31,564 bases of DNA. It comes from a virus. Where the stretch lies: positions 1 to 31,564 of the IMG/VR virus record IMGVR_UViG_3300040808_001336; one strand, given 5' to 3'. Both the position numbers and the translations under genes were made by a program. The notes below the pieces were generated by a model, which was not told the origin of the DNA, made no database searches, and saw nothing but the letters and a program-made list of their open reading frames with translations. This document shows, one piece after another, positions 688 to 27,574 of this stretch (within the stretch, counting starts at the first letter, position 1; each line of letters begins with the position of its first letter).

Positions 688-1551
688 ATGGTATCTTTGA
701 CATATAACAATTATTTTACTACATCCGGCACTGGAAAAGATTGGTCAATAAATTTTAAAAAATGTACTAAAAAGATTATAGAAGATTACCATAAAGAACT
801 AATAAATGCAGCTCATATAATACACGAGCAAGCTGATTCAAAATTAGTTTTGCTTTTTAGCGGCGGACTAGACGGAGAGTTTATGCTCAATATTTTCCGT
901 ACAGCCAAAATTCCTTTTGATACAGCAATTATTAGTTACGGAAAATATAATGCACATGATACAGAGTATGCATTTAGCTATTGCAATGATCACAATATTA
1001 AACCTATAATAGTAGATATAGATATAGAAGATTTTATAAAAAGCGGAAAACTTTTAGATATTGCAACAAAAGCAAATTGTAATGCTTACCAAATGCCTAG
1101 CATAATGTACGGACTATCTAAATTAGAAGGAACACTTGTAATGGCAAATGGTGAACCTTATATTAAAAATTATGACGGTGTTTGGAAATATCAAGAAACA
1201 GAACACGTTAACAGTTATATGAAATGGTATACTGATAACAGTATTGACGGAACACCTGATTTTTTACGATATACACCTGAAACAACTGTTGCATTTATCA
1301 AAGAACCTAGAGTACAAGAATTAGTTGCTAACAAGCATCCTGGAAAATTAAGCACAAGAACTAGTAAACATTTAATATATTCTAAAAATTATACTTTTGT
1401 GCCACGGCCTAAATACACAGGTTGGGAACTATTAGAAAAGACTCCGTTTTTTGAAAACGAAGTCTTAAAAGAATTTGAAAGACTAAAAGATAAAAATAAC
1501 GGAGTATATGAAATTGAAAGTAAAAAACTTTTAGAATTACTCTGTTCCTAG
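688..1551 (+). CDS. PP-loop ATP-pyrophosphatase domain protein (asparagine-synthase-like)
   Basis: Protein of 287 residues. Residues 53-64 read LVLLFSGGLDGE, a PP-loop nucleotide-binding motif (SGGxDS) of the alpha-type ATP pyrophosphatases, with the usual final Ser replaced by Gly63. Such domains adenylate a carboxyl or carbonyl group before amide or thio transfer (asparagine synthase, QueC, NAD synthase families). The layout after the loop looks most like the synthase half of asparagine-synthase-related proteins. There is no N-terminal glutaminase domain, and I see no cysteine cluster of the QueC type, so QueC is unlikely. AGGAAGGA lies 9 bases before the ATG. Its 3' end overlaps the convergent gene at 1537 by 15 bases. 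The substrate is unknown; it may serve the neighbouring biosynthetic operon. Confidence 0.72.
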   Translation: MVSLTYNNYFTTSGTGKDWSINFKKCTKKIIEDYHKELINAAHIIHEQADSKLVLLFSGGLDGEFMLNIFRTAKIPFDTAIISYGKYNAHDTEYAFSYCNDHNIKPIIVDIDIEDFIKSGKLLDIATKANCNAYQMPSIMYGLSKLEGTLVMANGEPYIKNYDGVWKYQETEHVNSYMKWYTDNSIDGTPDFLRYTPETTVAFIKEPRVQELVANKHPGKLSTRTSKHLIYSKNYTFVPRPKYTGWELLEKTPFFENEVLKEFERLKDKNNGVYEIESKKLLELLCS

Positions 1552-1914
1552 TAAAGAGTCTACTCTGTTATTAGGAATAAATGTTTCGTCGTATTGTGCT
1601 GCAAGATCTGCAAACTGCTCAAATGTTAAATCTTCATCAACTGATTTATCAAACATTTCAAGAGATTCTAATACAGCTTTAGCTGGAGAAAAATTAGTTA
1701 ATGCATCTTCAGAATCAAATATGTATAACAAATGGCATTTATCGTTATCTAGATAATAGTGTTTGAACCAAATGTCGCCGTTTTCACTTAAACTTTTAAT
1801 AGTTGATCCTAGTGTAATAAGGTCTGCATCACTAATAGTGTCTATTACACTGTTGTGAAACTCTTCGATATTTGTAATAGTACTATTTGATAACGTGACA
1901 GTAAGTTTTTTCAT
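1537..1914 (-). CDS. Hypothetical acidic protein
   Basis: A 125-residue protein that I do not recognise. It is acidic, with Ser/Thr-rich N-terminal beta-like segments (KLTVTLSNSTITNIEEFH) and a middle part containing IWFKHYYLDNDKCHLLYIFDS. There is no signal peptide or membrane segment. A clear AGGAG ribosome site lies shortly before the ATG at 1914, and an ATAAATA-containing stretch lies 19 bases before the start. The last 15 bases overlap the end of the plus-strand PP-loop gene. It is divergent from the oxygenase gene at 1955. Confidence 0.65.
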   Translation of the reverse strand: MKKLTVTLSNSTITNIEEFHNSVIDTISDADLITLGSTIKSLSENGDIWFKHYYLDNDKCHLLYIFDSEDALTNFSPAKAVLESLEMFDKSVDEDLTFEQFADLAAQYDETFIPNNRVDSLLGTE

Positions 1915-1979: not shown

Positions 1980-2524
1980 ACTTAGAAACAACAGAATCAT
2001 GTAACTCGTTAATCGAGTTTGTTAAATCTTATGATCAGTGGGAGTTCTATGGGCAAGGTCGTTTTACAATTTATATGGGATTCCCTCCTAAAGATATTGT
2101 TAGACCTATTACAACCCAATTTAAAAATCCTGATGATTTATTTTTTAAAACAGAATTAAATTTAGTAAAAGCAATGGGCATAGTTCCGCCCCACACAGAT
2201 CATCATAGATATGTTACTATCAACATTCCTTTAAAAGGAGATTTCAAAAATAGTTACCTTGATCTTTATACTCCTGCTGAAGGAATTTCAGCATCGTCTT
2301 TAAACCATAATTCTTCAAATTATGGCGGCGGACAATTTTATCCCTCTGCAAATCTAAGCAAGCAAATTAATTATGAAGATCCTATATGCTTTGATACACA
2401 AGAAATTCATGGTGTTACAAACGCAACTTTTGAAGATAGATTTATATTAACGCTTAGTTTTAGAGAAAACTATAAATTTGATCAAGTTAAGGAAATGTAT
2501 GATAATGGCGAACTCCTGTTATAA
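1955..2524 (+). CDS. Fe(II)/2-oxoglutarate oxygenase, HTD type (paralogue of 9133-9726)
   Basis: With the ATG at 1955 the protein has 189 residues. H80-T-D82, H152 and R162 give the facial triad and 2-oxoglutarate-binding arginine (PPHTDHHRYVTINIPLKG; PICFDTQEIHGVTN; FEDRFILTLSF). The same skeleton, including NIPxxGxF and TPICxxTxxxH-like blocks, recurs in the protein at 9133-9726, so the two are paralogues. The role is presumably hydroxylation of a small molecule or protein side chain; the substrate is unknown. An upstream in-frame ATG at 1895 would extend into the divergent gene and add a hydrophobic leader unlike the family, so 1955 was chosen, although its ribosome site is poor. The 3' end overlaps the next gene by 26 bases. 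Confidence 0.75.
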   Translation: MEKYFLLSNLETTESCNSLIEFVKSYDQWEFYGQGRFTIYMGFPPKDIVRPITTQFKNPDDLFFKTELNLVKAMGIVPPHTDHHRYVTINIPLKGDFKNSYLDLYTPAEGISASSLNHNSSNYGGGQFYPSANLSKQINYEDPICFDTQEIHGVTNATFEDRFILTLSFRENYKFDQVKEMYDNGELLL

Positions 2525-3230
2525 AGTTAAAGGTTACACACACTTAACTCAGGTATTTGATCCTAAAATTATAAAAAAAGAAGCAACTGAATTAAAGTCT
2601 ATTAAAAGCGATAATTTTACTTACGAAGACGACGGTACTATTCGTAGTCTTTTTGCTCCTCACTGGTATAGTAATAAAGTAAGAGATTTTGTATACAACA
2701 ATCCTGTAATAGACACTGTAAAAAAGATTTTAGGAAACGACATTTACGTACACCAAGTTCATTTTAATTACAAGTCTGCACATTCTGGCGGCGAATTTGC
2801 TTGGCATAGCGACTATACTTTTTGGGAAGCACACGATGGTATGAAGTCTCCTGATGCAATAAGCGTACTTTTTTTGTTAGATGATATGACAGAAAATAAC
2901 GGTCCATTGCAGTTGTTAGAAAAAAGCCATAACAATTTTGTAAAAAAACAAGACGAAAGTGCTTGGACTATCAATCATGATTCTTCAGAAACTGACGGTA
3001 TGATAACAGAAGAAATGGTGTCTAAGACGCAATATAAGCGTCATACAGTGCTTGCCAAAGCAGGTGATGTTGTACTAATGCATGCAAACACATGGCATAC
3101 TAGCGGCCCTAATACAAGTGATTTTGATAGAAATATTTTGTTTGTGTGTTACAACAGACTTGATAATAAAACAACAAAGGAAACTAGGCCTAAACATATT
3201 GTACTAAGAGATTTTATGCTTGTTCCTTAG
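2499..3230 (+). CDS. PhyH-family dioxygenase, ectoine-hydroxylase-like
   Basis: A 243-residue protein. H103-S-D105, H200 and R211 form the non-haem iron and 2-oxoglutarate site. The block around 102-116 (WHSDYTFWEAHDGM), followed by NNGPLQLLEKSH and RNILFVCYN, closely resembles ectoine 5-hydroxylase (EctD) within the phytanoyl-CoA dioxygenase family. Expected chemistry is Fe(II)/2OG-dependent hydroxylation of a small polar compound. That the substrate is ectoine is not shown; no ectABC genes are near. ATG at 2499 was chosen because AAGGA lies 5 bases upstream; a TTG at 2478 is also in frame. The last 27 bases overlap the convergent ATP-grasp gene. Confidence 0.82.
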   Translation: MIMANSCYKVKGYTHLTQVFDPKIIKKEATELKSIKSDNFTYEDDGTIRSLFAPHWYSNKVRDFVYNNPVIDTVKKILGNDIYVHQVHFNYKSAHSGGEFAWHSDYTFWEAHDGMKSPDAISVLFLLDDMTENNGPLQLLEKSHNNFVKKQDESAWTINHDSSETDGMITEEMVSKTQYKRHTVLAKAGDVVLMHANTWHTSGPNTSDFDRNILFVCYNRLDNKTTKETRPKHIVLRDFMLVP

Positions 3231-4355
3231 TACAATATTTTGAGCAACAGACTGCCATTTTTCTTCTGCTGTTGTAAGATAGTCGGCTGTGGTAACAGCA
3301 TAGCCTTTAAACGGCATTAATAAATCCATTCTAGTCATATACGATATTTCACTAGGTAGTTTTAATTCTACTGCTGTTTCTTTATCTCCAGTAAAATCAA
3401 CATCGTACTCGCCTTTTGGAAAATCAAAATATCTATAAACAACAGATTTTTTACAATTAACTTTTGATTTATTTTTGTATAGGATACTATCTAATACAAG
3501 CTCGTTATAATTGATATTTGCACTATATTTTACTAAAACCTGTGCGCTTACACTTAATCTAGGACTAAAATCAACTAACACGAATTCACCGTCACTGTAT
3601 ATAAAATCAGCCATCCACGCACAAGTATCTAACTCTAATGCATCTACAAATTTTTGCATCAATTCTTTTATAACAATATCAATATCAAAGTTAGGCGCAA
3701 ATACAAATCCTGTTTCTGCTCTGTAAGGTAATTCACTCATTTCTATATTATATGTGCAATCGACTATCAATTCTCCGTCTGCGATGCGTCCTGCACTACT
3801 TACTGTTACGCCTTCTATAAAATCTTGAAAGATGTAGTGTTTACCTAGATCGTTATATTGTATATCTTCACCCGATGCAAAAAAGAAATATTCACTATAA
3901 TCGTTAAGTACTTTTATACCTATACTTCCAGTGCCGTTTACAGGTTTAGCAATAAGCGGATATCTAGCTTTTTTAATATCGGTATACGTCCGTGGAACAG
4001 AAATGCCCACCGAACGTGCTACTTCTGTGTAATTTTTTTTACTAGAAAGTATTTCTGATTGTTTATCAGTAAATCCTAATTTTTTATACAAGTATGGAAA
4101 CATCATATCATTATATAAAGGAAATATAACATCGATATTTTTATCTTTTATGACGTTGTTTATTCCCCTTGCTAAGTCTCCTCTTTCTACTTCATAAATG
4201 TCTACGTTTTCTATTATGTTATGATGTATAGGAGTTGCAGTTTTTCTTGAAAAATCGTTACCTAATGCTCTCCACGAATAAAGGTTATGGTCTGATAGTT
4301 CTTCAACTGCATAGCGTAAGTTACCTGATTGGTAGTTTAAAAGTATATTAGCCAT
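3204..4355 (-). CDS. ATP-grasp family ligase
   Basis: A 383-residue protein with the carbamoyl-phosphate-synthase-like ATP-grasp layout. It has an N-terminal pre-ATP domain (1-110), then YPLIAKPVNGTGSIGIKVL at 132-150 supplying the ATP-binding lysine K137 and a glycine-rich loop. It also has IFQDFIEGVTVSS (adenine side) and FVLVDFSPRLSVSA near 258-271 in place of the usual E-x-NPR metal motif, with Asp for Glu and Ser for Asn. These enzymes join a carboxylate to an amine through an acyl-phosphate, making peptide or amide bonds. It is the last gene of the overlapping run that starts with panD, and its start overlaps the previous gene by 8 bases. It is the obvious candidate for the condensing step of that pathway; substrates are unknown. 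Confidence 0.8.
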   Translation of the reverse strand: MANILLNYQSGNLRYAVEELSDHNLYSWRALGNDFSRKTATPIHHNIIENVDIYEVERGDLARGINNVIKDKNIDVIFPLYNDMMFPYLYKKLGFTDKQSEILSSKKNYTEVARSVGISVPRTYTDIKKARYPLIAKPVNGTGSIGIKVLNDYSEYFFFASGEDIQYNDLGKHYIFQDFIEGVTVSSAGRIADGELIVDCTYNIEMSELPYRAETGFVFAPNFDIDIVIKELMQKFVDALELDTCAWMADFIYSDGEFVLVDFSPRLSVSAQVLVKYSANINYNELVLDSILYKNKSKVNCKKSVVYRYFDFPKGEYDVDFTGDKETAVELKLPSEISYMTRMDLLMPFKGYAVTTADYLTTAEEKWQSVAQNIVLRNKHKIS

Positions 4356-4959
4356 AAGTAATTGCGTCTTTCAAGTCAGTCGACATATAGTTTTGTTTTA
4401 AGCTAAGTTGTCGTATTGTTACATCGTACGGAACAGGATTCCATCCTAAGACTTTGTCATACAGTGTTATACCAGTTAATGTATTTTTTTTAATATATGC
4501 TCTATCAGCAATATGATATTTTTCGTCAACTACTTTAGCTAACATAATTCCGTAATGAGAAATATTATTATATTCAGAAAACTTGTTTTTATCTTTGATA
4601 CTAGCGTCTAACCTTTCAGATCTAGCATACCAATGACTCCATATACCTTGCTTTTCGTAGTAGTCGAGTATAAAGGTATAAAACTTTTTAAATATTTTTA
4701 TACTTTGAAATCCGTGTAGTCTATGATTGGTAATCATAGTATTATGAATAACCCACGGCATTGTACTAATATTATCAACAGCCATGCACATTTGAATTTT
4801 ATCGTCTATCACATATGCAAAAATATCTCGATCTTCTCTAATATAATCAATATTTTTCCAAAGAGGGTCTTGATGCAGATTTCTATATTGTATTTCAAAA
4901 TTTACAAAGTTGTAAAATAGATCTCTATGTTCTTCTGATAATTTAATAACCGTATTCAT
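4348..4959 (-). CDS. Hypothetical protein of the panD operon, possibly GNAT-like
   Basis: A 203-residue protein that I do not firmly recognise. It has alternating strand and helix character (FAYVIDDKIQMCMAVDNI, then IKIFKKFYTFILDYYEKQG). Such a layout can be seen in acyltransferases of the GNAT fold, but I cannot point to the acetyl-CoA loop. It is rich in aromatic residues and has no membrane segment. The start at 4959 overlaps the end of the radical SAM gene by 17 bases, and its end overlaps the ATP-grasp start by 8, so it is translationally coupled to both. Context suggests a dedicated enzyme or scaffold of the pathway. Confidence 0.6.
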   Translation of the reverse strand: MNTVIKLSEEHRDLFYNFVNFEIQYRNLHQDPLWKNIDYIREDRDIFAYVIDDKIQMCMAVDNISTMPWVIHNTMITNHRLHGFQSIKIFKKFYTFILDYYEKQGIWSHWYARSERLDASIKDKNKFSEYNNISHYGIMLAKVVDEKYHIADRAYIKKNTLTGITLYDKVLGWNPVPYDVTIRQLSLKQNYMSTDLKDAITYG

Positions 4960-5851
4960 TTAATTTTATGTGTTCCCAACAAGGTGCAATCATACCATCT
5001 TCCGTCAGACGTCCACGGTTTTTACTACCATTAATACCACTGTCGTTAAGATCATCTTCTTCATTCCAATTAATTAACCTAATATATACATTTCTATATT
5101 CAAATAAGTAACTTTCTCCGTAGTTGTTTGCTGTAATCTTGTTTGTTCCTGATTCAACTCTTTGTGCTTTGATTACGCTTTTAGAAATATTTAATTGCTG
5201 ACTTGCAATATTTACTAACTCTTGGAAGTCCATAGTATAACCTGCCATATATCTACCCAAGTCACCAATATTTTTTACTCTAAGAACTGGTTTTACTTTT
5301 GGTTTATATTTGTCTGCTAAATCTGCTACTATATCTGCTTGTCTTTTTAACGTATGCTCGTTTAATCCTTTAGCAATAATCGTTCCTGTATTAATTATGA
5401 AGCCTTTTGTTTTAAAACAATTTTCAAGTGCTTGCATTTTAAGTTCATGTGCATGACTGTGATTATCTAATTTTTCATATATATGCTTTTCGTCTGCGCC
5501 GTTCATACTAAGCAGAATCATACGTAGTCCTGCATTACGTAATTCTTGACAATATTTTAAACTTGCTAACTTCAGTCCGTTTGTTGTTACACTTGGTTTA
5601 TGACCATATTCTAATACTTTTGATATAATTTCTGGAAGATCTTTTCGTAGTGTAGGTTCTGCACCTATGAGCCTAATATATGCTCGTTCTGGTAATCTAC
5701 TTAAAACATCGTATAACATATTTTCGTTCATGTCTGGAATTGTTCTATTCGGCAAATAACAATTAAAACAATCCATATTACACCTATGTGTTAAGTCAAC
5801 AAAGATAACCTTAAAGTGGTTGTCTTCGGGTTTTACTTCGTAGTAATTCAT
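4943..5851 (-). CDS. Radical SAM enzyme (MoaA/PqqE-like)
   Basis: A 302-residue protein. FVDLTHRCNMDCFNCYLPNR carries the C24-x3-C28-x2-C31 motif that binds the SAM-cleaving 4Fe-4S cluster. It is followed by IRLIGAEPTLRKDL (the GGEP-like SAM contact) and SVTTNG. A further Cys291 sits in the last 15 residues (IAPCWEHIKLNEYGY), where some family members bind auxiliary clusters, but a full SPASM cysteine set is not evident. Radical SAM enzymes start difficult C-H chemistry on peptides or small molecules. ATG at 5851 overlaps the desaturase stop as ATGA, so the gene is coupled to it. The family is clear; the reaction is unknown. Confidence 0.85.
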   Translation of the reverse strand: MNYYEVKPEDNHFKVIFVDLTHRCNMDCFNCYLPNRTIPDMNENMLYDVLSRLPERAYIRLIGAEPTLRKDLPEIISKVLEYGHKPSVTTNGLKLASLKYCQELRNAGLRMILLSMNGADEKHIYEKLDNHSHAHELKMQALENCFKTKGFIINTGTIIAKGLNEHTLKRQADIVADLADKYKPKVKPVLRVKNIGDLGRYMAGYTMDFQELVNIASQQLNISKSVIKAQRVESGTNKITANNYGESYLFEYRNVYIRLINWNEEDDLNDSGINGSKNRGRLTEDGMIAPCWEHIKLNEYGY

Positions 5852-6567
5852 ATACGGTCCTTTTTTAAAAGCCAGATGATCGGAGCCATTGGATCATATT
5901 TTCCAAATCGCCAACTTTTAGTATTATTATGATGATTCAAATGATAGCTTTCGCCACTTGTAATTAAATTTAATAACGGAATGTTATTTGGTTTACCTTT
6001 CCAATGATTAATGCTATTAACTATGCCAGTAGCATAAAATACATAAACTGCAGGTATAGAGTATAAGTATGCGGTCCACACCGGTCCTAAACTTATTATT
6101 AAAAAACTTATAAACAATAATAGTATTATAAAGTAATGTTTATGTTGCAGCTTTAATAAATTGTTAGATAGTAATGATTTAACAAACATAGGCTTAATGT
6201 CATATCTACTCCATACATGAAATAGTGTCCTTAATTTACCATTGTACTTTGGACTATGAGGGTCTTTGTCAGTGTCGCTATTTGCATGATGTTCTCGATG
6301 AATACCGACCCAAGTAATAGCACTACCTACACTACATAATGTGCCTATGAACAAAGTTATAACTTCTGCAACTTTGTTTAGTTCAAATCCTCTATGTGCA
6401 TAGTATCGATGATAGCCTATACTAATACCTATTCCGCCAAATATGAACCCTATTAAATAAGATAGCAATAATAGATCAAAAGAAAATGCTGTATAAACAG
6501 CATATAGTCCTAAAATATGGTTAAAAATTAATAAACTTCTAATTTTAAAATTTGTACTTAGATCCAA
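5848..6567 (-). CDS. Membrane fatty-acid desaturase / di-iron hydroxylase
   Basis: A 239-residue membrane protein with the three histidine boxes of the acyl-CoA/lipid desaturase family: H53RYYAH58, H90REHH94 and GESYH209LNHH213, plus NSINH at 184-188. Hydrophobic stretches near 12-50, 66-90, 145-160 and 162-185 would form the membrane helices. The layout matches bacterial delta-9 desaturases, which are somewhat longer. Activity would be O2-dependent desaturation or hydroxylation of an acyl chain in the host membrane, needing an external electron donor. A TTG at 6567 is preferred because GGAGGA lies 7 bases before it; the longer frame would begin at another TTG at 6582, with that ribosome site inside it. 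It overlaps the genes on both sides. Confidence 0.85.
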   Translation of the reverse strand: MDLSTNFKIRSLLIFNHILGLYAVYTAFSFDLLLLSYLIGFIFGGIGISIGYHRYYAHRGFELNKVAEVITLFIGTLCSVGSAITWVGIHREHHANSDTDKDPHSPKYNGKLRTLFHVWSRYDIKPMFVKSLLSNNLLKLQHKHYFIILLLFISFLIISLGPVWTAYLYSIPAVYVFYATGIVNSINHWKGKPNNIPLLNLITSGESYHLNHHNNTKSWRFGKYDPMAPIIWLLKKDRI

Positions 6568-7256
6568 AATTGAATCCTCCAAAGTTCTCTTTCGCCTTCA
6601 AATGCGTGTCGTCTGTGCATAACTCGAATGTTATCGTAGATAAGAATATCATTTTCTTTCCAATGATGTCTGTAAATTGGCTGCTGTTCGCAGTGCTTTA
6701 CATACTTACTTATATCTAAATTTGACTGTAATGTACCAGGACTAATATACATTACAGTATCTCCTGTGACATGATGCTTGTGAGCAAAACTTCTAGTAAC
6801 TTTTGCTTTTTCTAATATCTTAAGCATTCTTGGAGTAAAACAAGTTTCGTGTAAGTATTGTGGGGGGAAGTAGTCACCTTGTAAATTTTCTAATTCTTCT
6901 TTATATTCATAAGAGTCATATGCCAAACGCATGTCAACAAAGTCTGTAGTGCTTAGGTGCCCGTTTTTTTGATTGTATAAAATTGTACCAAAATAATTGC
7001 CTTCGCCATAACTCCAATCATTGTGCCAATCAACATCATCATTACTAAACAACCCTTTGTCGCTTACGTATTGTACATGACGCTCTTTGTCTAGAGTGTG
7101 ACGTTTAGCAATTAAAGGCTTGCCCAGCATTCTCCCTATATTTTTAAATTCTTCTAAAGTGAGAGGGGCGTCACAGCTTAGATGTATAAGTCCGTGTTCG
7201 AGTAATTCTTTTTTAATATCGTATTGATCTATATCATTGATATTAAATCTAATCAA
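6558..7256 (-). CDS. TauD/TfdA-family Fe(II)/2OG dioxygenase, first copy
   Basis: A 232-residue protein. DVDWH78-N-D80 with the distal H214 (RVMHRRHAFEG) and arginines at 223/227 gives the TauD/TfdA metal and co-substrate site. The layout, with a first helix-rich third, then KRHTLDKERHVQYVSD and the WHND block, is standard for clavaminate-synthase-like enzymes. The start is a TTG with GGAG 8 bases upstream; it overlaps the end of the preceding TauD gene by 8 bases. The chemistry expected is hydroxylation, desaturation or oxidative cleavage of an amino-acid-like substrate. Unlike its neighbour, all metal ligands are intact. Confidence 0.8.
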   Translation of the reverse strand: MIRFNINDIDQYDIKKELLEHGLIHLSCDAPLTLEEFKNIGRMLGKPLIAKRHTLDKERHVQYVSDKGLFSNDDVDWHNDWSYGEGNYFGTILYNQKNGHLSTTDFVDMRLAYDSYEYKEELENLQGDYFPPQYLHETCFTPRMLKILEKAKVTRSFAHKHHVTGDTVMYISPGTLQSNLDISKYVKHCEQQPIYRHHWKENDILIYDNIRVMHRRHAFEGERELWRIQFWI

Positions 7257-8181
7257 TTATGTTACTCCAAGTTGAACACATACGGTGTAAGAGTCTTTTA
7301 CTTGTATCTGATCCAGGGCGTCTGTGCAGTGTAACAATTTGATCCATCCAGACTATTTCACCGTCTTGCCAATTGTGCTTATAAACATATTTGTCTTGCC
7401 ACAAATGGTCTACTAAAAATTTGTATAGTCTTTCGAACTCGTGCTGTGTGTATCCTTTAAACCCAACAATACTTGTCCATGGAAAATGCATTCCTGTCAT
7501 GCCGTTAGGTGCTGTAGCTATTACAGGCATTTCTACCCCGTCATCAGGAACAAGATGCATTTGTGTAATCAATGCTTGAGAATCTGAAGTACCTTTGCAA
7601 ATTTTATCCTTTTCAAAGCTATGGATAGCAATTAATTGTTTTACTTCTGACTGTACATCTGAGCTAAGGTCGTTTAGTGCATCTACGGTTTGTAGAAACT
7701 CTGTGCTTGATCCTTCTGTACCTTCTACGCCCTGAAGACCAATTAATGGTGCATATCCGCTATTATCGCTTTGTTGGTTACTATGCCATTCTAACTCACC
7801 ATCGGCAAACATACCAGTTCGTTTGCCTTTTTCATCTTTAATACCAGTTACTCGGATCATTCCTTTGAGATCTTCTAATCCGCCTTTCATTTTTTTCATA
7901 TCGGAAATAGTTTCTGCAAGAAGTTTATTCATACCTTCTTCGTTAATACGCTTCTTTAATACATCTTTAGCACCTGAGACAACTGGATCTCCCCAAAGAG
8001 TTTGTATGTAATGAAATCTTTGCGGCGTTATATTTGCGCATTTTGCATCTACGTAAACAACAAGCTCATTAAATACTAGCTTGCCTAACTCCATTAAGTC
8101 GTTGTCACTAGCTGTAGCTAAATCTATGTCAATAGCTTGTGCTCCTAAAGAACCAAAGCCGGGTAAATCAATTTTTTTCAT
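7249..8181 (-). CDS. TauD/TfdA-family dioxygenase homologue with HxN in place of HxD
   Basis: A 310-residue protein with the TauD/TfdA fold signature. ELEWHSNQQSDN lies at 130-140, MHFPWTSIVGFKGYTQHEF carries the substrate-side region, and VTLHRRPG with H286 is followed by the co-substrate arginine region (SKRLLHRMCS). The proximal metal motif reads H133-S-N135, not H-x-D, so the carboxylate iron ligand is missing at the usual place. Halogenases of the wider superfamily also lack this carboxylate, but with Gly or Ala. Asn may still bind iron weakly, or the protein may be altered or inactive. ATG overlaps the PanD stop as ATGA, with GGAGAA upstream, so it is tightly coupled to panD. Confidence 0.75.
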   Translation of the reverse strand: MKKIDLPGFGSLGAQAIDIDLATASDNDLMELGKLVFNELVVYVDAKCANITPQRFHYIQTLWGDPVVSGAKDVLKKRINEEGMNKLLAETISDMKKMKGGLEDLKGMIRVTGIKDEKGKRTGMFADGELEWHSNQQSDNSGYAPLIGLQGVEGTEGSSTEFLQTVDALNDLSSDVQSEVKQLIAIHSFEKDKICKGTSDSQALITQMHLVPDDGVEMPVIATAPNGMTGMHFPWTSIVGFKGYTQHEFERLYKFLVDHLWQDKYVYKHNWQDGEIVWMDQIVTLHRRPGSDTSKRLLHRMCSTWSNIID

Positions 8182-8534
8182 TTGTTCTCCATAGGGTAAG
8201 ACATTATATCAGATATTGTATTATACTTATCGCAAAATATAACAGTTGCAGAGTTAAATTGATTTAGCATCTCGTATGCAATAACAACACATTTATCGCC
8301 AATTTCACCTAATCTTGCTCCTCCACCGTTTAATTCAAACGAGCCCTTAGGTCCAGGTAACGCATACGTAGTCCAACGATTACCGTTATTTAAATTTACT
8401 ATGTCTACTTTTTGATAAGGATCTATACCAGAAGCTTTTAATAAATCTGCACAAACAGTAACACTTCCGTGATAATCTATGCTTTTAGAACTTACACTGA
8501 TATTATGTATTTTAGATTGTATATATTCTCTCAT
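8178..8534 (-). CDS. panD: L-aspartate 1-decarboxylase-like protein (PanD)
   Basis: A 118-residue protein colinear with bacterial PanD (about 126). The self-cleavage site is G23-S24 in YHGSVTV, where Ser becomes the pyruvoyl cofactor. K8 (SKIH) matches Lys9 of the E. coli enzyme. NGNRWTTYAL gives R53, T56 and Y57, matching Arg54, Thr57 and Tyr58, and N69-G70 matches the NG pair of the active site. The product would be beta-alanine from aspartate, or another amine from a related amino acid. In bacteria beta-alanine feeds pantothenate and CoA. Here no other pantothenate gene is seen, and panD heads an operon of oxygenases, a desaturase, a radical SAM enzyme and an ATP-grasp ligase. The ATG at 8534 lines up with the E. 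coli start. Strong family call; substrate not proven. Confidence 0.88.
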   Translation of the reverse strand: MREYIQSKIHNISVSSKSIDYHGSVTVCADLLKASGIDPYQKVDIVNLNNGNRWTTYALPGPKGSFELNGGGARLGEIGDKCVVIAYEMLNQFNSATVIFCDKYNTISDIMSYPMENK

Positions 8535-8540
8535 AAGTAT

Positions 8541-8569
8541 ATTATACTACATGAGAAATGTGTTGTCAA
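8541..8569 (-). promoter_or_regulatory. Consensus sigma70-type promoter in front of panD
   Basis: On the minus strand TTGACA (8569-8564) and TATAAT (8546-8541) are separated by exactly 17 bases, a perfect consensus. The expected start of transcription, about 7 bases after the -10, is near 8534, the first base of the panD start codon. The messenger would therefore have little or no leader. The -10/spacer border also holds the TAG stop of the preceding gene. Confidence 0.75.
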
Positions 8570-9152
8570 TACTTTTATATAAATCTATATCTTTTTGATA
8601 ATAATCTTGCCATAATTCCAATACAGAATTATTAAGTAGCTCTTCTTTACTGTATTTTGTATATGTAGGAGATTGATTAGAAACAATGGAGTACTTAAAA
8701 TCGTAATCTAGTTTTTTGTTTATCCAGTTGCGTACTTCAGGAATTCGATTAAACGAAAACAGTTTTGTATCGTTGTTTATAAATTCAGTCATCGGCTTAA
8801 AATGATTGTCCCAGTTAGTTGGTATCTTTTTAACTAGTATAAGATTTACATATAGCCAATTATTAATTTTTTTAAATTCTATATCTTTTGTTCGATAGAT
8901 GTATTCAGAAAGTGTTCTTTCCCAAGGTTCTCTTAGTATAGCAAATTCGTTTTTGAAAGACTTTTTAAAATATTGTTGACGTTCAACTGCGTCTAAATGA
9001 TGAGAACTTACATTTAAATAAGTTTGCATCCAAGGATTATAACCTTCAACTGTTGCACCTTGACTTCTCAAATTTGTATATATTGATGTTCCGCCAGTTT
9101 TTGGTATATGTACAAAAAACACAGAATTATTTTTATAAACAATATTTGGCAT
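8547..9152 (-). CDS. Sulfotransferase-family protein
   Basis: A 201-residue protein from ATG 9152. FFVHIPKTGGTSIYTNL near the N-terminus is the 5'-phosphosulfate loop of PAPS-dependent sulfotransferases, and LREPWERTLSEY supplies the 3'-phosphate Arg/Ser pair. It would transfer sulfate to a carbohydrate, lipid or other acceptor, or use the fold for another purpose. An in-frame TTG at 9158 is an alternative start; AGGA lies upstream of both. It overlaps the oxygenase gene at 9133 by 20 bases and ends at the panD promoter. The acceptor is unknown. Confidence 0.78.
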   Translation of the reverse strand: MPNIVYKNNSVFFVHIPKTGGTSIYTNLRSQGATVEGYNPWMQTYLNVSSHHLDAVERQQYFKKSFKNEFAILREPWERTLSEYIYRTKDIEFKKINNWLYVNLILVKKIPTNWDNHFKPMTEFINNDTKLFSFNRIPEVRNWINKKLDYDFKYSIVSNQSPTYTKYSKEELLNNSVLELWQDYYQKDIDLYKSIDNTFLM

Positions 9153-9726
9153 GAACAAATTTTCCTATCTCTTGCATTCTTTCGATGTCGGCAAAACTAA
9201 GTTTAGGATTAAACCCTAAGCCCAGCACAACTCTATCTGTTTTTGAAAAGTTTACAACATTATGTACTTTTTCAGTATTAAGACATATAGGAGTAGTGTA
9301 ATTTACTTTTTTAATTAGTGTTGAGTCGGGCCATCCGCCCCCGTCTTTTAAAACAGGTTTGCCCTCAAAAAATTCTGTGTTAGGTATAAAAGTTTTTCCT
9401 TTATCAAATATACCTACATAAGACTCGTCAAAGTTTCCTTCTATAGGAATATTAAGTGCTACTTTGCGTCTGCTGTCAGTGTGCGGCATAACTACAGCAC
9501 CAGGTTCTGTATACATGATTTCATAGTTGTCTACAATTTCAGGGTCTACTAGTTTATCTAACACTTCTTGTAGACTAGGCATAACTTCTAAATTTAAGCT
9601 ATGCATATAAAGACGCTTTCGTCTTGTGCCATAAAAACGAAAGCGTTCCTTGTTTATTTTAATAATTTGGGTTTTTAGGTCGCTAGACAGATCAAAGTCT
9701 TTTAATATGAAATATCTATTGAGCAT
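9133..9726 (-). CDS. Fe(II)/2-oxoglutarate oxygenase, HTD type (paralogue of 1955-2524)
   Basis: A 197-residue protein. VMPH82TD84SRRKVALNIPIEG, TPICLNTEKVH155NVVNF and TDR165VVLGLGF give the triad and arginine. The spacing and many flanking residues match the plus-strand protein at 1955-2524, showing common ancestry. It lies just after the tail-fibre-like gene, with ATG 4 bases beyond that stop and no strong ribosome site. The two paralogues bracket the panD operon. The substrate is unknown; protein-side-chain hydroxylation is as plausible as small-molecule chemistry. Confidence 0.75.
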   Translation of the reverse strand: MLNRYFILKDFDLSSDLKTQIIKINKERFRFYGTRRKRLYMHSLNLEVMPSLQEVLDKLVDPEIVDNYEIMYTEPGAVVMPHTDSRRKVALNIPIEGNFDESYVGIFDKGKTFIPNTEFFEGKPVLKDGGGWPDSTLIKKVNYTTPICLNTEKVHNVVNFSKTDRVVLGLGFNPKLSFADIERMQEIGKFVHAKYCL

Positions 9727-9730
9727 CCAT

Positions 9731-10909
9731 TTAGTTTAGAGCAACCCAAGCAGATCCAGTGTAACCTTGGAATTGTGGATTACCTGCTCCGTCGCCGTCT
9801 GTAACAAAACAAACCATGCCAGCAGCAGGTGTTGCTGCTGCATCTCTTGCAGAAGTATCAGCATATACAGCTAATTGTGCCATGCCTGAAAATGTACTAG
9901 TTCTAGTTTCGTCAACTGTAAACTGAGGTTCGGCTGCACCGTTTGAAGCAAATGTAAACAGTGATACTCTACCTGGAATTCTGTTTGCTTCAGGAGCACC
10001 ATTTGCAATAACTACAACGCCACCTGCGCCGTAGTTTGCAGATCCGTTGTATCCTCTAACTTGGAATGCACCTAGATTGTCACCACTTTGCACTGCTGTT
10101 GGCGCACCTTTTGTGCCTCTTGATTTTGTAATAGATATTGAAACAGTGTTTGTGCCGTCTGAGCTGTGATTAACAGCAACAGGCGCTGATAAAGGACTAT
10201 CATTAAATATGTTTAAACTTGTATCTGGGAAGCCTGCACTAGTGCCACCCAGTCTAAGATTACGACTTATAATAACATTACCACCAGTATTAGCAGTTGT
10301 AATAATTAAACTAGTATCGTCAGGATTGAATAAAGAAATTTGATTAGGAGTCTCACCGCCTATTCTAATATCACTAGCACTAACACTTCCAGTAGCAGTA
10401 ATTCCACCAAAGCTAGTTATCTTTTCTGCAAATAACTCTCTATTAATAGCATCGACCATAACAGATGAGTTTTCACCAAACACGCTTCCTTGCATGTCAC
10501 CATCTAAGTAACCGTTAATTACTTCGCCCGGACTAAAGATAGGTGATCCTGGAACCCAGGCAGCACCATCCCAAACAAGACTATCTCCGTTACTAGGAGG
10601 ATTACTTACAACATCAACATTAGATAAATCATTAATAGTAAGAGCAGGAACACCAGGAGCAAAGTTAGAACCGTTCCAAAGTAAAGCATCTCCGCTTGTA
10701 GGTGCAACACTGGTTGTGTCAACGTCACTTAATGCATCTATGCTTACAGTGGCTAAGTCATTTTCAATACCACCGGTTACCTTAATTCCTCCTACAGTTG
10801 ACCCGTCACCTATCCAAAGTGCTTCGTTGTCAATCCATAGTGGTTCACCTGCTTCGGGTGTAATTAGTTGTCGTTCTGCATCAGTTCCGCGTCTTAGTTT
10901 TAAGGCCAT
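9731..10909 (-). CDS. Tail-fibre-like structural protein
   Basis: A 392-residue protein. The N-terminus MALKLRRGTDAERQLITP then GEPLWIDNEALWIGDGSTVGG is a head module common in phage tail fibres and receptor-binding proteins. Two copies of a short repeat follow at about 57-88 and 95-123: LSDVD..PTSGDALLWNGSNFAPG and LSNVD..PSNGDSLVWDGAAWVPG. The middle is Gly/Ser/Thr/Asn-rich beta structure. The end, MVCFVTDGDGAGNPQFQGYTG then SAWVALN, is a typical phage C-terminal cap. An AGGAG site precedes the ATG and a T4-late-like CATAAATA lies 30 bases upstream, as expected for a virion gene. The host receptor is unknown. Confidence 0.78.
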   Translation of the reverse strand: MALKLRRGTDAERQLITPEAGEPLWIDNEALWIGDGSTVGGIKVTGGIENDLATVSIDALSDVDTTSVAPTSGDALLWNGSNFAPGVPALTINDLSNVDVVSNPPSNGDSLVWDGAAWVPGSPIFSPGEVINGYLDGDMQGSVFGENSSVMVDAINRELFAEKITSFGGITATGSVSASDIRIGGETPNQISLFNPDDTSLIITTANTGGNVIISRNLRLGGTSAGFPDTSLNIFNDSPLSAPVAVNHSSDGTNTVSISITKSRGTKGAPTAVQSGDNLGAFQVRGYNGSANYGAGGVVVIANGAPEANRIPGRVSLFTFASNGAAEPQFTVDETRTSTFSGMAQLAVYADTSARDAAATPAAGMVCFVTDGDGAGNPQFQGYTGSAWVALN

Positions 10910-18748: not shown

Positions 18749-18840
18749 TATAAGCCTTTCCTTATTTTTTCGTACTGTTCTTCTGTAATCTTTTTGCCAC
18801 GTAGTAGATCAAGGTCTTCTTCGCTAAGTCCCCCAGGCAT
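18748..18840 (-). CDS. Tiny 30-residue protein, SHOCT-like
   Basis: The frame runs from an ATG inside the end of QueE to a TAA that shares its last base with the next ATG (TAATG). It thus fills the whole gap between two genes. The product (GGLSEEDLDLLRGKK, then ITEEQYEKIRKGL) looks like a short helical SHOCT-type module. The ribosome site is weak (CGGGA directly before ATG). The perfect fit to its neighbours is the main support. Confidence 0.45.
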   Translation of the reverse strand: MPGGLSEEDLDLLRGKKITEEQYEKIRKGL

Positions 18841-19717
18841 TCCCGAATAGCGATATGTGGAGTCTTGGGCTGAATCTCCATCCTCTTTCCATGCAGAGGT
18901 TCGCCACTTCTTGAACGTTGAGGGTATATTCTTCACTGCGTCCGCCCAGCGGCATAAGATATACTGGACATTCCACCCCGGAATCCCTGTAAAGCTGAAC
19001 AGCTCTAGTAACTTCGTCCACATCATCTTGATCAGCGACAACAAACTTAAGATACATGTCACTACCATCAACGTGGCTATACTGACTAGCAACGTCAGGC
19101 TTAATAGCAGTCTCCCAAGGTTCTCCGCTAACACTAAGTTTTGGGGAACAACTCCAAGTAACTGTAAATCTTTCCTGATTGCTAAGATACTCGTAGAAAT
19201 CATTGTGTAGGGTTTGAGTAGTATTTGTTTCAAATGTGACATTTTTAAGGTCTCTCATTTTCGGATGTTCGAACAACTCTACGTAGAGTCGTTGCCATGC
19301 GAGTAAAGGCTCGCCACCTGTCATAATTAAATGGATGTCTTGTCCGTTGTCTTGTGTCCACTTTCCTTCAGGCAACAAACTAATCAAATGATCGACTACT
19401 TCGTCTACTTCTGCAAGTTTATTAAAGTGTTTAAACTCAGGATAGATACTTGCGTATGTATCACAGCCTGTGTGGATAATAGGCAAGTCCTCGAACTTTT
19501 CAGTTGTCTTGTGTACATCCTTAGCAATAAGATCTGCTACTTCTGGATTGTAGCGATTGCCTTCTTTGTGTTGTTCCCAACGATTCTTGTCTTTAGGAAG
19601 TCCAAAGTTCATACAACGAAAGTTACAACCAAATGTTCTTAAGAACACACTAGGGACTCCAACAAACTTGCCTTCGCCTTGTACACTATAAAATGCTTCT
19701 GAATAACGTAACTTCAT
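18824..19717 (-). CDS. queE: 7-carboxy-7-deazaguanine synthase (QueE), split-cysteine type
   Basis: A 297-residue radical SAM protein. EAFYSVQGEG and VPSVFLRTFGCNFRC are the QueE opening. The first two cluster cysteines are C31 and C35. The third position of the usual CxxxCxxC is Phe, and the matching cysteine is C85 in GCDTYAS, displaced by a 49-residue segment. LIMTGGEPLL follows, and the end is RGWRFSPRLHISLFGNAWGT. The reaction is ring contraction of carboxy-tetrahydropterin to 7-carboxy-7-deazaguanine. ATG at 19717 comes one base after the FolE stop; an in-frame TTG at 19729 is also possible. FolE and a QueD-like protein are also encoded here. Confidence 0.88.
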   Translation of the reverse strand: MKLRYSEAFYSVQGEGKFVGVPSVFLRTFGCNFRCMNFGLPKDKNRWEQHKEGNRYNPEVADLIAKDVHKTTEKFEDLPIIHTGCDTYASIYPEFKHFNKLAEVDEVVDHLISLLPEGKWTQDNGQDIHLIMTGGEPLLAWQRLYVELFEHPKMRDLKNVTFETNTTQTLHNDFYEYLSNQERFTVTWSCSPKLSVSGEPWETAIKPDVASQYSHVDGSDMYLKFVVADQDDVDEVTRAVQLYRDSGVECPVYLMPLGGRSEEYTLNVQEVANLCMERGWRFSPRLHISLFGNAWGT

Positions 19718-19718
19718 A

Positions 19719-20402
19719 TTAACACGCAAATTCTTGTTGCAACTTAATGTTGTCGAAGAATTCCTTTTTAGTTGCTGGGTCGGATTTAAATGCGCCTTCT
19801 AGTACAGTTGTCTGTGTAAGGCTACTATGTGCCATAATGCCGCGATTCTCACAACATCCGTGTGTTGCTTGAATGTAAACACCTAAATGTTCTGCACCTG
19901 TTGCTTTTGCAATTTCACGTGCAATATCATTTGCAAGTTCTTCTTGCAGTGTACCACGTCTAGCACACCATTGTGCGATACGTGTATATTTGCTAAGTCC
20001 GATTAGTTTCTCACTAGCAATAATACCAATGTATGCAGTACCTGCTACTGGCTGGTGATGATGCGAACACATACTTTTTAGTTCCGAACGAACTACTAGC
20101 ATACCTTCATAACGGTCTGCACTGTCATTAGGAAATGCAGTTGCACTTGGCATAGGATCATAACGTCCTGCCATAATCTCATTAAAGTACATTTTAGCAA
20201 GACGCCGTGCTGTACCTTTAGAGTTTGGATCGTTGTGACGATCAATTATAAGTGCATCTAGTACACCTTCAAATGCTACTGTAGCATTTTCAATAAGTGC
20301 TTCTTTATCACCTGCTTGTAATACTTCTGAAATGTTATCACCGGCCCAGTAGCGGATGCCAGCGTCTTCTAGTTTTTGTTTAATTTGTTCTGCTTTACTC
20401 AA
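19719..20402 (-). CDS. folE: GTP cyclohydrolase I (FolE)
   Basis: A 227-residue protein from a TTG at 20402, chosen because GGAGA lies 6 bases before it. An in-frame ATG at 20435 has no ribosome site and lies next to the hairpin. Zinc ligands are C112 and H115 (MCSHHHQP) and C183/C184 (THGCCENRGI), and LIGLSKYTRIAQWCARR is the family active-site stretch. The enzyme converts GTP to dihydroneopterin triphosphate, the entry to both folate and 7-deazaguanine routes. With QueE next to it and a QueD-like gene near, the 7-deazaguanine role is favoured. It has its own promoter. Confidence 0.92.
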   Translation of the reverse strand: MSKAEQIKQKLEDAGIRYWAGDNISEVLQAGDKEALIENATVAFEGVLDALIIDRHNDPNSKGTARRLAKMYFNEIMAGRYDPMPSATAFPNDSADRYEGMLVVRSELKSMCSHHHQPVAGTAYIGIIASEKLIGLSKYTRIAQWCARRGTLQEELANDIAREIAKATGAEHLGVYIQATHGCCENRGIMAHSSLTQTTVLEGAFKSDPATKKEFFDNIKLQQEFAC

Positions 20403-20435
20403 TTTAATTCTCCGAGTTATAGACGTGGATGTCAT

Positions 20436-21853: not shown

Positions 21854-22477
21854 TTATTTGTCTCCTGCATATTTTATTTTTGGTTCACCAATTAATCCGT
21901 GATCAATAAATTGAAAGGTTGGTGTAAACCTATGTTCATTTCTTAATGCTGTTGCGCTATGCTGTATTGCACCATTAAACAATAAGACTCTACCAGGAAT
22001 AGGAGCAATACTTAAAATAATAGGATATTCTTTTTCGCCACTAGTTACTATATCGCCTTGAAAATTTAACTTGTCTGAAATTAAAAATTTAGTTTCTCCG
22101 AAGTCATTTATGTCCCAGTACATACTTGCATACAATAATACAGTCCAACCTTTATATCTATCTTGATCTGTATGATAACGTGCATTTTCATTTGGAGCAA
22201 AAAGATTGATATGGTGCCTAGCCAAAGTATAATTATCTAACTCTGGTATATTGTCTTCACAGAATCTCCATAATTTTCTATACCAAAATGTATCACTTAG
22301 GTCTTTGCCCATAGTAGTTAAGCCTGTGGGAATTTTTTCACCTTCACTGTTACTATCACTAGCACCATATTTATAATCTAGATCCCAGCATTCTGTAGTC
22401 ATGCTTTCGATCATTTTTTCAGTAAATACATCGTCGAATGTTTGTATTTGACCGCCAAAGTAACTAGTGTGTTTCAT
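21854..22477 (-). CDS. Prolyl-4-hydroxylase-like Fe(II)/2OG oxygenase
   Basis: A 207-residue protein. ARYH102TD104QDRY, GRVLLFNGAIQH173SA and EHR183FTPTF give the metal triad and 2OG arginine of the prolyl-4-hydroxylase-like group found in many T4-like marine phages. Unlike the oxygenases near panD, it lies among nucleotide genes. The ATG overlaps the previous stop as ATGA with GAGG upstream. It might hydroxylate a protein or a modified base; the substrate is unknown. Confidence 0.8.
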   Translation of the reverse strand: MKHTSYFGGQIQTFDDVFTEKMIESMTTECWDLDYKYGASDSNSEGEKIPTGLTTMGKDLSDTFWYRKLWRFCEDNIPELDNYTLARHHINLFAPNENARYHTDQDRYKGWTVLLYASMYWDINDFGETKFLISDKLNFQGDIVTSGEKEYPIILSIAPIPGRVLLFNGAIQHSATALRNEHRFTPTFQFIDHGLIGEPKIKYAGDK

Positions 22478-25858: not shown

Positions 25859-26058
25859 CCTAATGCCTTTAACTGTGATTCGTATCTATGTATTTCGTCT
25901 TTAAGCCAAAGCTTTTGAGTTTTCTTACGATTTATTACACCGTCGTCTGCCCATTTATTATACAACTCTTTTATTTCGTCGTCAAGTGCTCTGTGACGTT
26001 TGTAAAGTTCTTGCAGATAATTAGCAATCTTATTGTGTTGCTCCGTGAAGTTGCTCAT
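25855..26058 (-). CDS. Small coiled-coil hypothetical protein
   Basis: A 67-residue charged helical protein (IANYLQELYKRHRALDDEIK; KTQKLWLKDEIHRYESQL), a likely helical hairpin. Its start lies 29 bases inside the end of the TGT-like gene. Function unknown. Confidence 0.58.
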   Translation of the reverse strand: MSNFTEQHNKIANYLQELYKRHRALDDEIKELYNKWADDGVINRKKTQKLWLKDEIHRYESQLKALG

Positions 26059-27574
26059 CTTCTAGTTCCTCTAGTTTTGTTTCATCTAGTTCGTCTTCTT
26101 CAAACGGCGCTGGTTCTTCAACGTCAAACAAACTATCAAAAAAGGTACTTGCATTTACTGTCTTTTTCCCGACCGCACCCCTAGTACCCGGAATAGCCAT
26201 CCAAAAACGACTGTGCTCGTCGACAAGTGCTAGAGCCTTGTCTTTGTCATCAGTTGCGAATATTTCTTCCACAATGTCTCTAAAAAATAACCTGTCAAAG
26301 CGTTCTTGTACAAGCATCCTCGGAACACTTCCATTGTCGTACTGTCTGTTTGCTTCTTGCACTGCATTTATGTGACTCCATACATTATGACCCATTTGGA
26401 TCGCATACGAAAAACTATCCCATGATGTTTTTCCTTCTTTGCCAATCTTGTTTAGATCTCCGGGAGCATAAGTGCAAACGTCTGATACTTTGAGTTCTGC
26501 TGTAAGCGGGCTGTCTTCAAAGTTTTTAAATATCCCATCTGATATAACAGCGTCTCTAAACAAGCGTTGATCTGTAGCATATTTCTTATCGTCAACTGAC
26601 GGCACCATACGATACGTCCATTTGCTTCGGTCTTCAGTCTCGTTCTGAATGTAGATTTGTCCATTCGCGGTTGCCAAGAAAGGACTAGCACAGTCAAAAG
26701 TAATAGTATAGTTTTCATTGTGATGTTTCCGTACTGCTCGTTGTACATCAGTTAGTAAGGTAGCCCACTCTAGTTTGCTTGTACCTAGGAAGTGCATAAA
26801 GTCTTGCACACCTTTTTCTAGCAAGCCGTCATAGCGTAGTGCAATCAGTCTTTTAAGTACAAGATGCACATCACACATGTTTTGACCACCCATTGACCAC
26901 CCGTTAAAGTGTTCGTTTGGATATTGCTTCGGATCTGAATACTTCTTCATACGCTGATACCAATCTTCTGCATCAGCGTGATTTTCACCTTGAAGAACAT
27001 TTAAGAACTTACAGTTGCCATTACGATTGCGAATAAACCAATCGTTATTAATATATGTGCCTTGTACTGCTTCCATGTAACTAGTAATACCAGTTGCTTT
27101 TTGCCCGGCAGGTGAACGAGCAACCCAAGCTGGAATATCTAAGATCATTCCATAGTCCATATAAGCATCCATCCACGTAAGAACCTGCTCACGTTTCTTT
27201 TGTGCTTTTGGACAATTAGGATCTTTCCAATCACCTTCCCAAACACCCTTACCAATCTGGAAGCCACCCGAGTCACCTAGTATCCAACTGTTATTCCTAT
27301 CTCTGTTACGCACCATATCTTCTTTGGGTGCATGTTTGTTTACATCTAGTTCTGCATGTCCTGCGGAATATAGTGTCCAATGATAATTAAACAAACCTTG
27401 ATCAGGATTGAGATAATTTAGACTTTCAACACCATTTGTAAAATTACTAGGTACTCTGTCTTTTGCGACATACTCGTCATAACGCTGTTTGCCCACGTAA
27501 GTGGCATAAAAGCCACTTAGCGCAGGCAGGAAAACAGCATAGTCATTTTGTGTTGCGGTTAAATTTCTATTCAT
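26030..27574 (-). CDS. Divergent tRNA-guanine-transglycosylase-like protein (phage DpdA-like)
   Basis: A 514-residue protein. SWILGD101SGGFQIGKG matches the DSGGFQ base-binding motif of TGT enzymes. LNVLQGE (191-197), GWSMGG (225-230) and HFLGTS (261-266) follow in the TGT order (QGG, GG, MGxG), and ITFD294CASPF places the nucleophile aspartate. The zinc site is not of the usual CxCxxC type: only C367 and H396 are seen in that region. The last 30 residues are very acidic. TGT swaps guanine for a 7-deazaguanine in tRNA; phage DpdA does it in DNA. With FolE, QueD and QueE encoded nearby, DNA is the likely substrate. The TGT fold is fairly sure; DNA as target is inferred. Confidence 0.75.
   Translation of the reverse strand: MNRNLTATQNDYAVFLPALSGFYATYVGKQRYDEYVAKDRVPSNFTNGVESLNYLNPDQGLFNYHWTLYSAGHAELDVNKHAPKEDMVRNRDRNNSWILGDSGGFQIGKGVWEGDWKDPNCPKAQKKREQVLTWMDAYMDYGMILDIPAWVARSPAGQKATGITSYMEAVQGTYINNDWFIRNRNGNCKFLNVLQGENHADAEDWYQRMKKYSDPKQYPNEHFNGWSMGGQNMCDVHLVLKRLIALRYDGLLEKGVQDFMHFLGTSKLEWATLLTDVQRAVRKHHNENYTITFDCASPFLATANGQIYIQNETEDRSKWTYRMVPSVDDKKYATDQRLFRDAVISDGIFKNFEDSPLTAELKVSDVCTYAPGDLNKIGKEGKTSWDSFSYAIQMGHNVWSHINAVQEANRQYDNGSVPRMLVQERFDRLFFRDIVEEIFATDDKDKALALVDEHSRFWMAIPGTRGAVGKKTVNASTFFDSLFDVEEPAPFEEDELDETKLEELEDEQLHGATQ

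Follow-up and report, generated by a model that had tools for sequence, protein, structure and literature searches.

What might a phage make with an operon that runs from PanD, an aspartate 1-decarboxylase, through two TauD-like oxygenases (TauD1 and TauD2), a desaturase, a radical SAM enzyme and a GNAT-fold protein to an ATP-grasp ligase? The seven overlapping open reading frames lie on the minus strand of the IMG/VR viral record IMGVR_UViG_3300040808_001336, all 31,564 nucleotides of which form the window analyzed here; coordinates are counted on this whole stretch. As a rule, a viral metabolic gene is a lone helper of a host pathway. The conserved, modular nature of this seven-enzyme operon and its positionally fixed promoter suggest that marine phages run biosynthesis of their own. 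Our tentative answer is a phage-encoded pathway that would join beta-alanine to an oxidatively tailored amino acid, with a small molecule as its product.

Operon layout, promoter and selection

The first-pass annotation had described a seven-gene operon behind one perfect promoter, and this description stands: all the open reading frames are present and the sigma-70 promoter matches the consensus at every position (Table 1). Six of the seven families were confirmed by Pfam; the GNAT-fold protein had no Pfam match. The range of 4–17 bases given for the overlaps was too narrow. All six junctions do overlap, by 4, 8, 25 (or 10), 4, 17 and 8 bases in order, two of them as ATGA. The third, between TauD2 and the desaturase, spans 25 bases if the desaturase starts at the TTG that is homologous to the ATG of its relatives, and 10 if it starts at the next TTG, which has GGAGG upstream.

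The operon is more than a chance arrangement, because its order recurs in two other viral contigs, L002 and L003, its ratios of nonsynonymous to synonymous substitution (dN/dS) are low, and the catalytic motifs are intact except for the iron site of TauD1. Comparison of the window with L002 and L003 found synonymous differences near saturation (pS 0.6–0.8). Where dS could be measured, dN/dS was mostly 0.04–0.2 for the operon genes. The radical SAM gene had a dN of about 0.09, the GNAT-fold gene, which evolves fastest, 0.4–0.7, and the others 0.1–0.4. Purifying selection acts on all seven reading frames.

Every PanD locus that was examined has the promoter in the same place. In nine distinct upstream sequences (the window, L002, L003, L046, L048, L050, which is identical to L052, L051, L057, which is identical to L058, and L064), the −10 box ends exactly 6 nucleotides before the PanD ATG, with scores of 10–12 out of 12. 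Among 2,421 distinct sequences upstream of ATG codons in the phage loci, only 17 have a promoter scoring 11–12 that ends 5–8 nucleotides before the ATG, and six of these 17 precede PanD. Transcription usually starts 6–8 nucleotides past the −10 box. Given this spacing, the mRNA would begin at the AUG or within 1–2 bases of it, and the PanD-led message is therefore predicted to be leaderless. The sigma-70 consensus itself suggests early expression by the host polymerase.

Recurrence as two recombining cassettes

The first-pass annotation had proposed that conserved synteny with intact active sites would argue for a pathway. L002 and L003, the two contigs found with the radical SAM query, are independent and keep the complete seven-gene order with intact catalytic residues, so a coordinated pathway behind the operon is supported. 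Identities to the window proteins are 87% for the radical SAM enzyme, 74–75% for PanD, 72–84% for TauD1, 72–77% for TauD2, 65–68% for the desaturase, 55–64% for the ATP-grasp ligase and 36–51% for the GNAT-fold protein. The flanking PhyH, small-protein, PP-loop and 2-oxoglutarate (2OG) oxygenase genes are likewise in place, and in L002 an additional desaturase gene has been inserted ahead of the radical SAM gene. In both contigs, further 2OG oxygenase-like genes lie beside a second desaturase and a radical SAM gene of the B12-binding type.

Profile scans with the radical SAM enzyme, TauD2, the ATP-grasp ligase, PanD and TauD1 were combined with neighborhood tables; several contigs are near-duplicates or fragments, and counts refer to records rather than independent events. 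A core of PanD, GNAT-fold protein and ATP-grasp ligase stands alone behind a fiber gene in L046, L048, L050–L052 and L054. TauD2 and the radical SAM gene are inserted into this core in L064 (PanD–TauD2–radical SAM–GNAT–ATP-grasp), with a truncated copy in L049, and the block TauD1–TauD2–desaturase–radical SAM is inserted in the window, L002 and L003. L057 and L058 have the same PanD, but their desaturase and radical SAM genes lie on the other strand, and their ATP-grasp ligase, which has diverged (29%), is followed by an unmatched protein of 189 amino acids that is GNAT-like by eye only. The recurrence of the same functions there bears out the annotation in part, but the genes have diverged and been rearranged. 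A separate cassette, usually ordered radical SAM–GNATx–TauD1–TauD2, occurs with other flanks in about 20 marine viral contigs, often with a sulfotransferase-like gene. The label GNATx comes from reading the sequences by eye, and profile comparison detected no homology between it and the operon's GNAT-fold protein. PanD is the first gene in every syntenic locus, the GNAT-fold gene is present wherever such loci are complete, and the ATP-grasp gene invariably follows it in the syntenic phages. The seven genes are thus not a fixed unit but two recombining cassettes within a larger, oxygenase-rich island beside a fiber gene.

One of these loci, L064 (PBPT01000016.1, 335 kb), is filed as Neomarinimicrobiota. 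It has an intact PanD with the promoter spacing of the window, and its fiber, tail-region and operon genes and its flanks are those of the window. The contig probably belongs to a phage and was binned into a bacterial metagenome-assembled genome (MAG); for this reason it was not counted as cellular. A bacterial scan found relatives of the radical SAM gene in a few MAGs, one accompanied by TauD2 in a Geminicoccaceae contig (L065, 7977–9642) and another, in a Bdellovibrionales contig (L067, 8001–12132), by a second radical SAM gene, TauD1 (HTN) and GNATx. These clusters may be cellular counterparts of the phage cassette. In this one scan, neither PanD nor the ATP-grasp gene lay beside the radical SAM gene in any cellular locus apart from L064. 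No phage isolate with the operon was found among 50,697 phage records, in which the radical SAM enzyme had only remote matches and the ATP-grasp ligase none. The gene set was found in no published paper within a coverage that leaves out most subscription journals. Metabolic islands are already known from marine phages; no described system with this combination of genes was found within that coverage.

Active sites and island neighbors

PanD matches TIGR00223 at 1.9e-24, below the equivalog cut-off (86 versus 106 bits). Aligned to solved PanD, it retains K8, H10, Y21, the G23-S24 cleavage site, R53, T56, Y57 and N69, and thus both the self-cleavage site Y21-H22-G23-S24 and the catalytic Lys, Arg, Tyr and Asn of the family. 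The ATP-grasp ligase has the expected fold and the conserved catalytic residues K137, D250, D262 and R266. Its profile is closest to the L-amino acid ligase BL00235 (3vot, 3e-11) and to BacD, a match that, we stress, is a lead on a possible amino-acid substrate and not a test of one. The desaturase has the three histidine boxes HRYYAH, HREHH and HLNHH. In the radical SAM enzyme, which has about 40 marine viral relatives, the CxxxCxxC motif (C24, C28 and C31) and the C-terminus are conserved; this is the one cluster motif, and no additional cluster ligands are conserved. Its nearest solved relatives, matching in the core domain only, are glycerol dialkyl glycerol tetraether (GDGT)/macrocyclic archaeol synthase and MoaA.

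The first-pass annotation counted two TauD oxygenases. TauD2 is canonical: it has the HxD...H triad and the 2OG-binding R227 of TauD/TfdA-type Fe/2OG oxygenases, and HxD is present in all 37 readable sequences of its clade. TauD1 has the TauD fold by Foldseek (3e-16, with low confidence in the loop that bears the motif) but lacks the HxD...H iron triad of taurine dioxygenase. In a sequence alignment, its N135 takes the place of the iron-binding aspartate of TfdA-type enzymes. The 84 readable members of the TauD1 clade divide into HxN (55, as in the window), HxA (22), HxH (3) and HxD (4), a count biased by a scan pattern that contained [AN]. The relatives in Pelagibacter phage Mosig (L060 6788–7597) and cyanophage P-HM1 (L061 1096–2166), found by plain tblastn without that pattern, are also HSN rather than HxD. 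Judged from these alignments, TauD1 is no ordinary taurine dioxygenase, and its clade has lost the iron-binding carboxylate. HxA or HxG is a mark of Fe/2OG halogenases, and HxA is the motif in the TauD1 of radical SAM cassette relatives; TauD1 is therefore a possible halogenase. The halogenase motif by itself yields false positives (PMC12871659), and AspH is a two-histidine enzyme that hydroxylates (PMC8252765).

This clade comprises more than 80 sequences in our sample and has relatives in cyanophage and pelagiphage isolates. Since it lacks the metal ligand of taurine dioxygenase, the reading of viral "tauD" genes as a means of taurine use may be wrong. With isolates among the members, this can already be tested. 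Why marine phage genomes hold so many 2OG oxygenases has long been puzzling, and the cassettes offer defined sets of genes for addressing the question.

The protein that the first-pass annotation had left as unknown is predicted to have a GNAT fold. Its AlphaFold model (mean predicted local distance difference test score 74.5) matched GNATs in Foldseek at 5e-7 and superposed on RimI with a Z score of 14.0 and a root-mean-square deviation of 2.8 Å over 144 aligned residues. The Q/RxxGxG/A acyl-CoA loop is degenerate and is not conserved among eight members, and for this reason we do not claim acyltransferase activity. PanZ/PanM is a GNAT that activates PanD. PanZ was not among the structural matches of the model, an absence compatible with a PanZ-like role.

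Table 1. Coordinates of the promoter, the operon genes and their neighbors in the window
Feature	Position	Strand	Length (amino acids)	Evidence
Sigma-70 promoter, TTGACA-N17-TATAAT	8541..8569	−		12/12 consensus match; −10 box ends 6 nucleotides before PanD ATG
PanD, aspartate 1-decarboxylase	8178..8534	−	118	Pfam Asp_decarbox 1.9e-30
TauD-like 1 (TauD1)	7249..8181	−	310	Pfam TauD 2.1e-18; iron site H133-x-N135...H286, R296/R300
TauD-like 2 (TauD2)	6558..7256	−	232	Pfam TauD 1.1e-18; canonical H78-x-D80...H214, R227
Membrane desaturase/hydroxylase-like	5848..6582	−	244	Pfam FA_desaturase 2.9e-12; DesA family 1.5e-17
Radical SAM enzyme	4943..5851	−	302	Pfam Radical_SAM 1e-14
GNAT-fold protein	4348..4959	−	203	No sequence match
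ATP-grasp ligase	3204..4355	−	383	Pfam ATP-grasp_3 2.4e-9, above cut-off
PhyH/ectoine-hydroxylase-like oxygenase, convergent neighbor	2478..3230	+		Pfam PhyH 1.3e-29; in all complete core loci
PP-loop (QueC-like) protein	688..1551	+		SGGxD motif; QueC 0.002, below cut-off; position conserved in island
Sulfotransferase-like gene between fiber and operon	8547..9158	−		Pfam Sulfotransfer_2 1e-4; PHROG 3347 1.3e-13
Fiber-like gene, insertion place of island	9731..10909	−		PHROG 9627, unknown function

The fiber-like gene is the same neighbor in L002, L003, L046, L048, L050 and L057, and the sulfotransferase-like gene is not at the window position in the syntenic relatives. Putative 2OG-Fe oxygenase-like genes lie at 2–703, 1895–2524, 2478–3230, 9133–9726 and 21854–22477, with a Pfam match only for the PhyH one (2478–3230). 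Inside the reading frame at 9133–9726 there is a terminator-like stem of 13 pairs with a T-containing tail (9613–9646, minus strand). A small acidic protein of about 125 amino acids, with no known family, is encoded between convergent genes in the window (1537–1914), L002 (13991–14368) and L048 (12187–12573). Adjacent QueE-like and FolE genes at 18824–20435 suggest 7-deazaguanine DNA modification, and a reading frame of 514 amino acids at 26030–27574 resembles a transglycosylase (DpdA-type) by eye, with no Pfam or PHROG match. In other marine phage islands (L086–L131, for example L094, L101 and L122), which often adjoin fiber genes, TauD1 (HSN) occurs together with a desaturase, a GNAT, several 2OG oxygenases and a radical SAM gene of the B12-binding type.

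A possible pathway and its rivals

The joint inheritance of the genes, the joint insertion of sub-blocks and the intact catalytic motifs argue for one pathway. In the scheme we propose, host sigma-70 polymerase would transcribe the operon early as a leaderless mRNA and PanD would form beta-alanine by decarboxylation of aspartate. Unreactive carbons of a small, probably amino-acid-like substrate would be altered in successive steps by the radical SAM enzyme, by TauD2, by TauD1, which lacks the carboxylate, and by the desaturase-like enzyme, with TauD1 acting either by halogenation or by two-histidine hydroxylation. An amide bond made by the ATP-grasp ligase would connect the tailored amino acid with beta-alanine, and the GNAT-fold protein would either acylate or hand over the product or mature PanD as PanZ/PanM does. 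The product might act within the infected cell, for example as a modified dipeptide or an antimetabolite. Most likely it is a beta-alanine-containing small molecule or modification made during infection. The first-pass suggestion of a beta-alanine-derived product thus fits the active site of PanD and the nearness of the ATP-grasp ligase to amino-acid ligases, and stays a prediction. Its other suggestion, an acylated product, is weakened by the degenerate acyl-CoA loop, and acyl chains are only putative substrates of the desaturase.

Several points weigh against this scheme. The closest matches fall far below family cut-offs and give none of the operon's enzymes a known substrate, so the pathway cannot be named. 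Proteins and DNA bases are also modified by enzymes of the GNAT-fold and ATP-grasp types, the beta-alanine may be destined for something else, and the fiber-gene neighborhood could equally mean a virion or host-surface role. Furthermore, a single radical SAM profile scan gave partial clusters only and no cellular genome with the full gene set. A narrower form of the proposal, in which a modular, natural-product-like pathway with a radical SAM enzyme and a new phage clade of halogenase-like TauD enzymes without the carboxylate supplies infected cells with an antimetabolite or signal of the beta-alanyl dipeptide type, seems to us distinctly unlikely. If true, it would mean that viral "tauD" genes of the TauD1 clade are not taurine-degradation genes.

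The same enzymes could instead serve nucleobase hypermodification, with the GNAT-fold protein and the ATP-grasp ligase attaching a beta-alanine-derived or oxidized group to phage DNA, or to a nucleotide, as a shield from host nucleases. The 7-deazaguanine pathway is represented in the window by FolE and QueE, along with a weakly QueC-like gene, and the unrelated actinophage Jace has PanD in an operon with an ABC-ATPase/GNAT of predicted DNA-acylation type. A base hydroxymethylase would give a thymidylate-synthase-like match, but among eight relatives searched such a match was found in one (G006) of seven viral records, several of which are fragments. The cassettes also lie by a fiber gene and not by replication genes, and the operon has no Mom, ABC-ATPase-GNAT or ParB-like partner, the last two being absent from its direct neighbors as well. 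In favor of this reading, an ABC ATPase-coupled GNAT is predicted to acylate a DNA base, and PA5oct-type phages, which give the best matches of a MoxR-like ATPase in the window, carry several base-modification systems (PMC7824862). On balance, we consider this explanation unlikely.

The position of the island beside a fiber-like gene in the syntenic phages would suit the decoration of fibers, host proteins or lipids by hydroxylation, amino-acyl ligation or acylation, as would the tail-fiber genes that adjoin TauD1 islands of other phages, including Mosig, and the Asp/Arg-hydroxylase-like genes in the islands. For jumbo phages, host proteins have been predicted as targets of GNATs and ATP-grasp ligases (PMC7824862). 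We nevertheless doubt this role: the promoter is of the host sigma-70, early type rather than late, the product of PanD is a free metabolite, the TauD fold usually belongs to small-molecule enzymes, and the radical SAM cassette is also found away from fiber genes, for example in L005 after ThyX-like and cell-wall-hydrolase-like genes. Many single metabolic genes are known from marine phages, and the seven might simply be independent auxiliary genes, with PanD feeding host coenzyme A (CoA) under a PanZ/PanM-like GNAT-fold factor, which would account for the constant company of the two genes, the desaturase acting on lipids and the oxygenases scavenging nutrients. Conservation of the whole block, the overlaps and the block-wise gain of TauD and radical SAM genes between PanD and GNAT point instead to a joint function. 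An ATP-grasp ligase plays no part in making CoA, and TauD1 lacks the iron ligand that a normal TauD needs. We rate this last account as very unlikely.

The proposed beta-alanine pathway can be set beside five known systems. Jace, a Gordonia/Rhodococcus phage, encodes ParB-like, ABC-ATPase/GNAT, PanD and CoA-transferase III proteins in a row (L161 2847–5612). It shares with the window a phage PanD (54% identical) beside a GNAT domain in an operon, but has no ATP-grasp, radical SAM, TauD or desaturase gene, and its GNAT is fused to the ATPase. The island of Mosig (EXVC030M) resembles the window in its fatty acid desaturase, HxN TauD, N-acetyltransferase and 2OG oxygenases beside tail-fiber genes. 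It differs in having no PanD or ATP-grasp annotated and no operon-type radical SAM enzyme detected, and adds an aminotransferase, an FMN reductase, a peroxiredoxin and a methylase. A Mosig "molybdenum cofactor enzyme" (61562–62428) was considered as the counterpart of the operon's radical SAM enzyme and rejected, as it has no radical SAM cysteine motif. The viral "tauD" genes of PHROG 24590, found in cyanophages P-HM1, P-HM2 and MED4-213, are homologous to TauD1 (E = 4e-38), and that of P-HM1 has the same HxN site, whereas in P-HM1 and MED4-213 they stand alone, with no radical SAM or ATP-grasp gene annotated nearby. Fe/2OG halogenases have likewise lost the iron-binding carboxylate, as in the HxA-type TauD1 of the radical SAM cassette; the window TauD1 differs in its HxN motif and TauD-type fold. 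The operon has none of the bac genes of bacilysin, and its ligase is partnered instead by radical SAM, TauD, desaturase and PanD proteins. Its likeness to bacilysin-type dipeptide synthesis lies in the ATP-grasp profile, which is nearest to BacD and BL00235, and in the proposed chemistry, in which a tailored amino acid would be joined to a common one.

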